Shown piece after piece: positions 57,215 to 61,735 of a stretch of 64,000 bases of DNA. Under the pieces are notes generated by a model. It saw only the letters and a list, made by a program, of their open reading frames with translations. It searched no databases and had not been told where the DNA came from. Every line of letters begins with the position of its first letter. Within the stretch, counting starts at the first letter, position 1. Source of the DNA: Methanomassiliicoccus sp. (GTDB taxonomy: Archaea > Thermoplasmatota > Thermoplasmata > Methanomassiliicoccales > Methanomassiliicoccaceae); assembly GCA_033485155.1 (NCBI GenBank), contig JAWQJJ010000008.1:1-64000 (forward strand), given 5' to 3'. The position numbers and the translations under genes are program-made.

Positions 57215-58873
57215 ATGAAGCGACGGGATCAATTCCTAGAGTTCATTAACCACAAGGGGTTCCGCAAGGGCTGGAACGCCTTCATCATCGCTTTTTTCCT
57301 CCTCTTCATCGTCCTGCCCACGGTCTACGTCGTTACCTATGCCTTCACCGATTGGGATGCCATCAGCCTCACCGTTCTGAGCAACCCGGAGACCATGGGT
57401 ATGATCCAGGACGCCATTATCGCGTCCTTCGCCATCGCCACCATCGTCACGATCATCGACTTCCTCGCCGGCCTCCCTGTAGCGTGGATGCTGGTACGCA
57501 AGAACTTCAGGGGAAAGGAGTTGCTGGATACGTTGATAGATATGCCTTTGGCGGTACCCACTGCCGCCTTGGGCTTCTCCGCAGCGATCTTCTGGGTCGT
57601 GAACCCAAACCCTCCCCCCTTCTCCCTTTCTATCATCTCCTCCCCCTTCATCCTGATCATCTTGCTGCACATCGTGTTCTCCTATCCCTATATGGTCCGC
57701 TCCCTGTCGGCCATCCTGGAGGAGATCGACGAGACCTACGAGACCGCTGGCCGGACGCTGGGGGCGAGCCGGCTGACCGCTGCCCGCACGGTAACCCTGC
57801 CGCTTTTCCGGGCTGGCCTGGCGACCGGTGTGATCCTGTGCTTCTCCCGCAGCATGAGCGAGACCGGGGGGACCATGATCGCCCTGAGCACGATGTCCCG
57901 CATGGGCGTCACCGCGGCCAGCGACTTCGCCACCGGGCCCACGCTTATCGGGGATTGGAAGACTCTGTCCCTAACCGACCCCAGCTACACTCCGGCCCTG
58001 GCCTTCGTAAGCATCCTGCTCATCATCCTGGCCCTGATCCTGCTGGTGGTGCTCAAGCTTCTCATCATGAAGTTCCACATCCCCCTGCGCAAGGTGTGGC
58101 CGATGCCGGAGAAGATGCTCAGCCGAGGCATCTTTCCCAAGCTTAAGGACGGGGGGGCCCTCTTCTTCCTGGCCCTGTTCGTCCTGGTGCCGTCCTTCTT
58201 CATCTTCACCTACGTGCTGTTCTCGACGCCTCAGGCCGCCGAGTGGGGGCAGTTCTTCTCCGCGCTGGGATACTCTTTCCTGCTGGCCGGCATCGTCACG
58301 GTTATTGACATCGCCATGGGCATCCCCTTCGCGCTCTACATCTCCAAGCATCCTGACCGGAAGTCGTCACACATCCTCGATGTACTGGTCAATGTTCCCC
58401 TGATCGTTCCCACCGCCGCCCTGGGCATATCGCTCAGCCTATTCTGGAGCGCGGCGGGGGTGCTCAGCGGGGCTCAGTTCGTCATCCTCATCCTGGCCCA
58501 CGTAGCGTTCACCTATCCTCTGGTCGTGAGGAACGTGGCCGGGGCGGTGGAGGAGATCGACCCGTCCTTCGAGGAGACGGCCAGGACCTTGGGCGCAAAC
58601 CCCATGCAGTCGTTCCGCCGGGTGCTCTATCCCCTAATCAAGGGTTCCATCCTTGCTGGAGCCATCATGGCCTTCACCCGCAGCCTCGGAGAGACCGGCG
58701 CCACCCAGGCCATCCTGGGCAATAACGCCCAGACCGCCCCCGTGTTCATCGTTTCCCTGGTTAAGAGCAACGCGTTCTTCCAGGCCGGACTGGCGTGCAT
58801 CATTCTGATCGTCGTCTCCTACATCTTCATGCTCATGCTCCGCTACATCACCAAGAGGAAGGAGGCGATCTGA
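57215..58873 (+). CDS. ABC importer permease, two permease units fused
   Basis: 552 residues, about 12 TM helices as two covalently joined permease units. Each half carries an EAA loop that contacts the ATPases: EEIDETYETAGRTLGASRL (first) and EEIDPSFEETARTLGANPM (second). This resembles fused permeases for sulfate/molybdate/tungstate, iron, thiamine or polyamines. No substrate-binding protein is found in the window, so the solute is open. TGA 58871-58873 ends the frame, but the same frame stays open beyond it as the ATPase gene. Confidence 0.9.
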   Translation: MKRRDQFLEFINHKGFRKGWNAFIIAFFLLFIVLPTVYVVTYAFTDWDAISLTVLSNPETMGMIQDAIIASFAIATIVTIIDFLAGLPVAWMLVRKNFRGKELLDTLIDMPLAVPTAALGFSAAIFWVVNPNPPPFSLSIISSPFILIILLHIVFSYPYMVRSLSAILEEIDETYETAGRTLGASRLTAARTVTLPLFRAGLATGVILCFSRSMSETGGTMIALSTMSRMGVTAASDFATGPTLIGDWKTLSLTDPSYTPALAFVSILLIILALILLVVLKLLIMKFHIPLRKVWPMPEKMLSRGIFPKLKDGGALFFLALFVLVPSFFIFTYVLFSTPQAAEWGQFFSALGYSFLLAGIVTVIDIAMGIPFALYISKHPDRKSSHILDVLVNVPLIVPTAALGISLSLFWSAAGVLSGAQFVILILAHVAFTYPLVVRNVAGAVEEIDPSFEETARTLGANPMQSFRRVLYPLIKGSILAGAIMAFTRSLGETGATQAILGNNAQTAPVFIVSLVKSNAFFQAGLACIILIVVSYIFMLMLRYITKRKEAI

Positions 58874-59971
58874 ACGCCCAGCATCGCCCTTCAGGAGATC
58901 AGCAAGCGGTATGATGATGTGGTGGCCGCCGATGACCTCGATCTCACGGTGAACAACGGCGAGTACCTGTGCCTCCTGGGGCCCACCGGAGCGGGCAAGA
59001 CGACCGCCCTGAGGATCATCGCTGGGCTTACCAAGCCGGACTCCGGGCAGGTGCTCTTCGACGACCGTGACATCACCAGGCTGGAGCCGGAGGAGCGGAA
59101 CGCCGTGCTGCTGTCCCAGACCTACTCCCTGTTCCCGACCATGACTGTGGCCGAGAACATCCTGTTCGGACCGAGCATCAGGAAGATGCCCGAGGAGGAG
59201 AAGAAGCAGACTCTGGTCGAGCTGCTGGACCTCGTGCGTCTTACTAAAAGGGCCGATTCGTACCCCCGCGAGCTGTCTGGAGGAATGCAGCAGCGGAACG
59301 CTCTGGCCAGGGCCCTGGCCACGAGCCCGGACGTGCTTCTACTGGACGAGCCACTGAGGGCCCTGGACGCCCGCCTGAGAATCGATCTCCGGTACGAGCT
59401 CCGGTCCATGGCCAAGAGCCTCGGCCTCACCGTCATCCATGTCACCCATGACCAGGAAGAAGCCATGGTCATGGCTGACCGCATCGCCGTCATCAGGGAC
59501 GGGCGCATCGTCCAGATCGGCACCCCCCGGGAGGTGTTCGACAGTCCCGCCACCCCCTTCGTCGCCAACTTCGTGGGACAGTCCAACTTCTTCACCGGGT
59601 CGATCCTGTGTTCCGGCCATGGGCGAACGACGACGGTGCACGACGAGGAGGGCCGCATAGTGTTCGCCCGCCCATGCACCCTGCCGGTCGACTCCAAGGT
59701 AGTGGTGGCGATCAAGATCGGCAACACCAGGGTGGTGAAGAAGAGCGACGCGTTCCTTACCGGGACGGTGGAGAGGACGCTGTTCGAGGGCCGCATAGTG
59801 CATCTGGACGTCGGCATACCGGGGCTGGAAAGGTTCTCGGTGAAGCTGCCGGCCTCCCGCCGGGATCAGGTGACGGTGGGGGATGAGATCGGCCTCAATT
59901 GGGGGGTGCAGAAGGCCTCGGTCTTCCCGTACCCCGAGGGCGGACTGGACAATGAGCTGAGGGTGGACTGA
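58874..59971 (+). CDS. ABC importer ATPase 1, apparent ACG start
   Basis: Energises the fused permease. About 365 residues from ACG 58874, or 350 from GTG 58919. Walker A GPTGAGKTT, Q-loop LSQTYSLFPTMT, signature LSGGMQQRNALARAL, Walker B VLLLDEPL, His loop HVTHD, then a TOBE-like C-terminus. The family N-terminus IALQEISKRYDDVVAADDLDL, including the A-loop Tyr that stacks on adenine, lies upstream of GTG 58919, where no ATG, GTG or TTG exists. GGAGG (58861-58865) sits 8 nt before ACG, right after the permease stop. I therefore favour ACG 58874, or a lost ATG. It could also be a sequence error. Confidence 0.85.
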   Translation, partial: TPSIALQEISKRYDDVVAADDLDLTVNNGEYLCLLGPTGAGKTTALRIIAGLTKPDSGQVLFDDRDITRLEPEERNAVLLSQTYSLFPTMTVAENILFGPSIRKMPEEEKKQTLVELLDLVRLTKRADSYPRELSGGMQQRNALARALATSPDVLLLDEPLRALDARLRIDLRYELRSMAKSLGLTVIHVTHDQEEAMVMADRIAVIRDGRIVQIGTPREVFDSPATPFVANFVGQSNFFTGSILCSGHGRTTTVHDEEGRIVFARPCTLPVDSKVVVAIKIGNTRVVKKSDAFLTGTVERTLFEGRIVHLDVGIPGLERFSVKLPASRRDQVTVGDEIGLNWGVQKASVFPYPEGGLDNELRVD

Positions 59972-61056
59972 TGCCGGAGGTGGAGCTGAAGGGGATCATG
60001 AAGCGGTTCGGAAAAGTGACTGCCTCCCGGGACATCGACCTAAAGATCGCCGATGGCGAGTACGTGACCATCCTAGGGCCATCTGGCTGCGGAAAAACCA
60101 CCCTGATCCGGATGATCGCCGGGATCATCGAGCCCACCGAGGGCAAGGTGCTCATCGGGGGGAGGGACATGGAAGGAGTGCCCATCGAGGAGAGGGACAT
60201 CGGGTATGTGTTCCAGAACATAGCCCTGTTCCCTCACCTCAACGCTCTGGGGAACGTCGCCTACGGCCCCATTGTCAGGGGCATGGATGAGAAGGAGGCA
60301 CAGGACATACCCCGCCGCTATCTGGAGCTGGTGAAGCTACTGGACCGCATGTCCATGTTCCCCGGCGAGCTTTCGGGCGGGGAGCAGCAGAAGGTGTCAC
60401 TGGCCCGCGCTCTGGCCTCGGGGGCCAAACTTCTGTTGCTGGACGAGCCGCTTTCTGCCCTCGACGCCAGGGTGCGCATGGACCTCCGCTACGAGCTGAG
60501 GCGCATAACCAAGGACCTTGGGCTGACGGTGATCCATGTCACCCATGACCAGGAGGAGGCTATGACCGTGTCCGACCGTATCGTCCTGATGCGCAACGGC
60601 CGGATCGTGGAGACGAACACCCCCGAGATGCTCTATCTCGCCCCCAAGGACCTCTTCACCGCCAACTTCGTCGGGGAGACGAACCTGCTGGAGGGAGTAG
60701 TCAAAGAGGTGCTGGAAGACCGTACCCTGGTCGAGCTGAGGGACGGGACGGTGGTGGAGGCTAGGCCCTCGGACTTCGGTAGCGGCGACGCGGTCGTGTT
60801 ATCGATACGCCCGGAAAGAGTGCACCCCGCCACCGAAGGTCTTCGCTCGGTGGTGAAGGGCATATCGTTCATGGGTACATACATCCGAATATCGGTGGAA
60901 ACAGAGAGCGAGGACCGGTTGACCTTCGATGTCAGTACATCCGAGGACCGAGATTATAATATAGGCGACCGCGTGGACCTTATCTGGAGCAAGAGGTCCG
61001 GAATACTTTACCCCAGACCGCCCGAGGGCGTGCAAGAGGCGATAAAGCTTGAGTGA
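59971..61056 (+). CDS. ABC importer ATPase 2
   Basis: 361 residues. Walker A GPSGCGKTT, signature LSGGEQQKVSLARAL, Walker B LLLLDEPLSALDARVRMDLR, His loop HVTHDQEEA, and a C-terminal TOBE domain from about residue 240 with MOP-like sequence. It keeps a complete N-terminus (VELKGIMKRFGKVTASRDIDL). It is a diverged paralogue of ATPase 1; the pair probably form a heterodimer under the fused permease. ATG overlaps the preceding stop by one base (TGATG). Confidence 0.94.
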   Translation: MPEVELKGIMKRFGKVTASRDIDLKIADGEYVTILGPSGCGKTTLIRMIAGIIEPTEGKVLIGGRDMEGVPIEERDIGYVFQNIALFPHLNALGNVAYGPIVRGMDEKEAQDIPRRYLELVKLLDRMSMFPGELSGGEQQKVSLARALASGAKLLLLDEPLSALDARVRMDLRYELRRITKDLGLTVIHVTHDQEEAMTVSDRIVLMRNGRIVETNTPEMLYLAPKDLFTANFVGETNLLEGVVKEVLEDRTLVELRDGTVVEARPSDFGSGDAVVLSIRPERVHPATEGLRSVVKGISFMGTYIRISVETESEDRLTFDVSTSEDRDYNIGDRVDLIWSKRSGILYPRPPEGVQEAIKLE

Positions 61057-61735
61057 AAGGAAATCATTATTGGAGTGGTTCGGAAAGCGCCGCGAGTCGG
61101 TGGTCATGAGTGGGATACGCGATCATGTTCGCGCGGTGGGGGATGCGGCCTCTGAGCTGAACAAGGCGGTGACCGCCCTGTGCGGCTCGGACCCCATCAA
61201 GGCCATGGACGCCCTTAACCGCATGTTACTCTCCGAGCAGGAGGCGGACAGCGTCGAAGAGCGGATAAGCATGGAACTGAGCAAGGGGGACATGGAGCCC
61301 AAAGAACGCGAGGACCTTATGCGCCTGGTCCGTCGCATGGACTTCATCGCCGACTGGTCCAAGGAGGCGGGGATGAATCTCCAGCTTATCCTGGAAGCGA
61401 AGGTGAAGGTCCCGGTCACCCTATGGTCCCACTACCATGAAATGACAATCGAACTGGAGCGGGCGGCCAAGGAGCTCAGGGCCAGCATCGAGAATCTAGG
61501 TATAAACGAGCAGATGGCGGAGAAGCACTCCCGGGAGGTGGAGCGGCTCGAGCATGTGCTGGACGAGCTATACTTTGTCACCAAGAAGGAGATACTGTTC
61601 TCGGACATCGACCCTCGGGCGGTATTCCTCCTGAGAGACATGCTCCACGGCATCGAGAACGCCGCGGACTCGTGCAAGGACGTCGCTGACATTATACACA
61701 TCCTAATTACTTCCGAGGCGCACAAAGTTCGGTGA
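61049..61735 (+). CDS. PhoU-like DUF47-family protein
   Basis: 228 residues, all-helical PhoU-like bundle (WFGKRRESVVMSGIRDHVRAV; LELSKGD-type metal-rich loops; LRDMLHGIENAADSCKDVADII near the C-terminus with E/D residues that could bind metal). DUF47 proteins regulate or accompany ion transporters, most often phosphate permeases. The start is TTG 61049, overlapping the ATPase 2 stop by 8 nt; ATG 61106 is another choice. Location suggests that it controls the ABC importer. Confidence 0.87.
   Translation: MSERKSLLEWFGKRRESVVMSGIRDHVRAVGDAASELNKAVTALCGSDPIKAMDALNRMLLSEQEADSVEERISMELSKGDMEPKEREDLMRLVRRMDFIADWSKEAGMNLQLILEAKVKVPVTLWSHYHEMTIELERAAKELRASIENLGINEQMAEKHSREVERLEHVLDELYFVTKKEILFSDIDPRAVFLLRDMLHGIENAADSCKDVADIIHILITSEAHKVR

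Follow-up and report, generated by a model that had tools for sequence, protein, structure and literature searches.

The permease–ATPase junction considered here lies in a 64,000-nucleotide window (the whole stretch of DNA that was analysed) from a Methanomassiliicoccus sp., which is part of contig C8 of the 2.8 Mb assembly G000. The genes and signals at the junction are collected in Table 1. Our reading of the open reading frames agrees with the original prediction that the permease and ATPase 1 occupy one frame and are split only by a TGA, the ACG being the next codon, and that a GGAGG stands 8 nt ahead of this ACG. From the ACG, the frame reads TPSIALQEISKRYDDVVAADD... and runs to a stop at 59969–59971. 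The junctions downstream of ATPase 1 are tight too, as indicated by the TGATG overlap at ATPase 2 and the longer overlap in which the TTG of the DUF47/PhoU-like gene lies. The location of that last gene right after both ATPases suggests a transporter operon tied to anion or metal homeostasis.

Table 1. Features at the permease–ATPase junction (positions in the window)
Feature	Position	Strand	Basis
Upstream gene: fused ABC permease, 552 aa, two BPD_transp_1 stretches, TGA end	57215..58873	+	ORF, Pfam
GGAGG Shine-Dalgarno within the last permease codons; 8 nt, then ACG	58861..58865	+	
Permease TGA stop, ACG immediately 3'	58871..58873	+	Stop type and frame differ in relatives without ATG
Putative ACG start codon of ATPase 1	58874..58876	+	Conservation, ATG in sister species, third base kept
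ATPase 1, 365 aa counted from ACG, ABC_tran and TOBE_2	58874..59971	+	Pfam, structure alignments
GTG, first in-frame ATG/GTG/TTG of ATPase 1, codon 16	58919..58921	+	
ATPase 2, ordinary ATG, TGATG overlap with ATPase 1	59971..61056	+	
DUF47/PhoU-like gene, listed start TTG, overlaps the end of ATPase 2	61049..61735	+	

By sequence, ATPase 1 is an ordinary member of the MalK/PotA/FbpC-type ABC ATPases and is unusual only in its start codon. It carries ABC_tran (residues 20–161 by Pfam) and a C-terminal TOBE_2 domain, and it aligns with solved MalK/PotA-type ATPases from position 2–4 on with zero offset (2it1, 4–237 to 4–237; 8y5g, 2–245 to 2–245), which places codon 1, the ACG, at the family start point. 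The open reading frames and these alignments together uphold the earlier claim that the family N-terminus is intact and holds no ATG, GTG or TTG before the GTG at 58919; a start at this GTG would delete that N-terminus along with the tyrosine at codon 13 (58910–58912), a cost that had also been foreseen. An ordinary ATG, GTG or TTG was present within the expected stretch in 73/73 homologous ATPase genes of other genomes, a comparison that is the sole control outside the family and represents one gene family. Taken with the recurrence of a non-AUG codon in close relatives, it indicates that the lack of an ordinary start here exceeds chance.

The start column was compared in the 14 family genomes that carry the ATPase gene. 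TGA is followed by ACG in the window, G005 (UBA6) and G001 (UR.bin18), and by GCG in G006 (MXMAG1), the latter codon being seen in one assembly and lying two bases off AUG. The sister species G002, G003 and G004 have ATG in a TG-ATG overlap at the same column, so that the proposed comparison of close relatives divides the genus into these three and four species with ACG or GCG. In another genus of the family, G008 has ACG after TAA, G013 has ACG in a TG-ACG overlap, G012 has ATT and the rest have ATG; a CTG just ahead of the start-column codon is a rival start in G013 and G012. All order-level relatives in the tree have ATG, and an ATPase tree from which the N-terminus was excluded requires a minimum of four switches between ATG and other codons. 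Both G006 and the remaining ACG species of the genus have GGAGG at the same place, and start and stop abut or overlap in the relatives too, the spacing of a stop-coupled gene pair. In all five ACG species the start column is ACG throughout, compared with 0/14 of the other invariant threonine columns; the third base would drift if the codon merely encoded threonine, and its retention therefore points to a role as start. With no ATG, GTG or TTG at the start supported by homology and a codon shared with relatives, the site has the properties of a conserved non-canonical start, and an ACG start of ATPase 1 is well supported by these comparisons.

A different arrangement is seen near position 1500 (oriented) of the order-level loci L015, L016, L017, L018 and L022, where the permease ends in TAG and the next codon is the ATG of the ATPase, in the same frame. 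As the order uses TAG for pyrrolysine, low-level readthrough would yield a permease–ATPase fusion there. A pyrrolysine tRNA gene with a CTA anticodon is located at G000:C8:96628-96699 (L126:12628-12699), ~33 kb past the end of the window.

Similar starts were sought in other genes by surveying 2.05 Mb (73%) of G000 for coding signal that sets in at an upstream stop where no ordinary start is close by. About 9/663 stop-coupled genes in this part of the genome stood out; eight of the candidates were named by Pfam and six were examined across all family genomes. The closest parallel to ATPase 1 is a HyfE-like hydrogenase subunit, in which TGA is followed by ACG in 7/13 species, among them the four members of the window's clade, and by ATG in G002–G004, the same division as in ATPase 1; in two of the ACG species of the other genus an ATG stands six codons further in. 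Its start column is ACG throughout in six species, as is none of nine other invariant threonine columns, and when the ATPase and HyfE-like genes are pooled the count for such columns is 0/23. A class II aldolase has CTG in G000, G005, G006 and G009, TTG in G008, G011 and G012, GTG in G013 and ATG in G002–G004, at or within one codon of a common column. In most species the TfuA gene has a CTG placed about six bases after a GGAGG-like sequence. The CTG-start genes overlap their upstream neighbour out of frame. CobS is without ATG, GTG or TTG in 14/15 family genomes; its likeliest start would be ATT in these genomes, ACG in seven species from a different family and ATA or ATC in a few, the alternative being a codon that overlaps the stop (GTA, CTA, CTG or TTA). 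Rad50, which follows Mre11, has ATC in place of the ATG seen in eight outer relatives, and a second possible non-canonical start (CTG, TTG, CTA, TTA or ATA) lies two codons past the ATC.

A rule restricting such starts to stop-coupled genes was rejected, since Dph2 (CTG in G000 and G005; TTG, GTG or ATG at the same column in others) and MptA (ATT, ATC or ATA in 7/7 genus species) appear leadered. Near-cognate starts thus appear to extend beyond coupled sites, though the clear cases are mostly coupled. Among uncoupled genes, the candidates lacking an ordinary start close by were mostly coding-model noise. A methyltransferase at C1:101841 was set aside because its start is ambiguous: ACG, GCG, GTG or GTT follows the stop, and another genus has an ATG two codons downstream. 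A response-regulator-like ORF (KKVLIVDDNPAI) on the minus strand of G000:C3 near 69125 (L130) has a possible leadered near-cognate start; its first codon seems to be an ATC located seven bases after GGAGG, and no ordinary start is nearby. The homologue frames of TfuA in G006 (L241) and CobS in G024 (L308) each contain one TGA, which may reflect an error, a pseudogene or recoding. The Dph2 homologue at G005:C13:37469-38468 (L360/L361) was matched as two overlapping segments that differ in frame, as a frameshift would produce.

The absence of an ordinary start codon at the head of ATPase 1 could be explained without ACG initiation. Translation might begin at GTG 58919, the first ordinary start in frame, leaving the codons upstream untranslated; however, the family N-terminus lies intact between the TGA and this GTG, its alignment with solved ATPases begins at residue 2, and the sister species begin with ATG at the ACG column. 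No Shine-Dalgarno comparable to the GGAGG was seen by eye before this GTG, and we consider such a start very unlikely. Readthrough of the TGA at a low level, one of the options in the original prediction, would supply the ATPase as part of a permease–ATPase fusion, and a single in-frame stop does separate the two genes in the window, G005, G001, G006 and G008. The same stop is TAA in G008, however, and the in-frame arrangement is not common to all species without an ordinary start: in G013 and G012, where ATG is absent too, permease and ATPase lie in different frames, and stop readthrough cannot make the ATPase of G013. The out-of-frame overlaps of the CTG-start genes argue in the same direction, and readthrough as the source of ATPase 1 is, if anything, slightly less probable than the internal GTG.

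Two further readings change the codon itself. If the mRNA were edited from C to U, ACG would become AUG, GCG would become GUG and CTG would become UUG, so that one type of change would make all three codons ordinary, and the G is kept in all ACG species. The ATT, ATC and ATA codons of MptA and CobS would remain unexplained, however, and we know of no such C-to-U mRNA editing in archaea; we regard editing as extremely unlikely. The original prediction had also named a base error or a recent, private mutation from ATG to ACG, which would take a single transition. Both were rejected, as far as the relatives' assemblies are trustworthy, because other species show the identical codon in assemblies made independently and a second gene has ACG in the same clade. 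Moreover, the ATPases of the non-AUG species of the genus are only 85–89% identical to the window protein, and a change common to such species is neither recent nor private. This is the least probable of the explanations considered.

We therefore favour the remaining option of the original prediction, non-standard ACG initiation, which gains support from the codon being conserved across species, the sister ATG in the same column and the recurrence of the pattern in other genes. Our main reading, with a probability of roughly 0.8, is that translation of ATPase 1 begins at ACG 58874, probably via reinitiation, and that this belongs to a wider use of near-cognate starts throughout the lineage. 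A ribosome terminating at the permease TGA would be held by the GGAGG in the last permease codons and would restart on the next triplet, ACG, using ordinary Met-tRNAi. This step draws on reinitiation at stop junctions. Experiments have established such reinitiation in Haloferax volcanii and E. coli (PMC6728339), and it requires genes that overlap or lie very close together (PMC10666635), as they do here. An altered initiator tRNA was rejected, as the single initiator-type Met tRNA found in the 73% of the genome searched (C5:158142) looks normal, with a CAT anticodon, A1-U72 and an anticodon stem containing three G-C pairs. Given this anticodon, the middle base of ACG would be read through a C-A mismatch, which would have to be tolerated. 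The same tolerance, covering ACG, CTG, ATT, ATC and ATA, probably operates at the other genes, mostly at stop-coupled junctions and at some leadered ones. We infer that the first residue is Met and that the ribosome reinitiates rather than initiating afresh. The likely effect would be less ATPase 1, with its yield coupled to permease synthesis, and the purpose may be to limit the dosage of ATPase 1 relative to its partners.

ACG initiation occurs in eukaryotes, and chloroplast ACG starts are C-to-U edited. These systems likewise have ACG in the start position, but they involve scanning ribosomes or RNA editing and operate without Shine-Dalgarno or stop coupling. Reinitiation pairs of archaea and bacteria resemble the present junction in that stop and start touch or overlap, the Shine-Dalgarno lies inside the upstream gene and the products are subunits of one complex (PMC6728339; PMC10666635); however, the known pairs use ATG, GTG or TTG, whereas the codon conserved here is ACG (also CTG and ATH). 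Non-canonical starts are treated in PMC10666635 only as a possible rare origin of odd overlaps. Conserved non-canonical starts have been reported for bacterial infC (ATT/ATC) and Streptomyces sigR (GTC), the latter keeping SigR below its partner and having been annotated wrongly in every streptomycete genome available at the time (PMC5472188). The likeness to infC and sigR consists in a conserved weak start after a strong Shine-Dalgarno, missed by gene callers and probably limiting dosage. Those cases are nevertheless bacterial, IF3-controlled and based on other codons, whereas in archaea aIF1 replaces IF3, and many genes seem to be affected here. Efficient near-cognate initiation is disfavoured by measurements in E. 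coli, where CUG gives 0.86% of AUG (PMC11497404) and ATT ~0.3% (a value cited in PMC10666635). Archaeal aIF1 discriminates against non-canonical starts (PMC6237735). In the open-access literature we found no papers on archaeal ACG starts, which is not proof of absence. Overall, the junction appears to represent conserved near-cognate initiation, a known kind of event, the new element being ACG in an archaeon and its recurrence across genes and species.

The original prediction concerned one locus, whereas the phenomenon appears to be lineage-wide. It is well supported by the comparative evidence that ATPase 1 and at least one other gene have long been ACG-started in these methane-producing archaea. 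More tentatively, and at somewhat less than even odds, Methanomassiliicoccales may possess an enlarged start-codon set, in which ACG, CUG and AUU/AUC/AUA are used along with AUG, GUG and UUG in many genes, long kept for subunit dosage and made possible by a relaxed start check (aIF1, aIF2 or the small ribosomal subunit). ACG starts go unrecognised by standard gene finders, and to our knowledge the start codons of NCBI table 11 do not include ACG. A genome comparison of the order reported AUG and, to a lesser extent, GUG and UUG starts (PMC4153887). As ACG is outside both sets, automatic annotation should truncate or miss the N-termini concerned, with those of the ABC ATPase, the hydrogenase subunit, cobalamin synthase, Rad50, Dph2 and others at risk. 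If confirmed, these genes would provide a natural archaeal set for testing how the ribosome chooses start codons, and whether reinitiation relaxes that choice.
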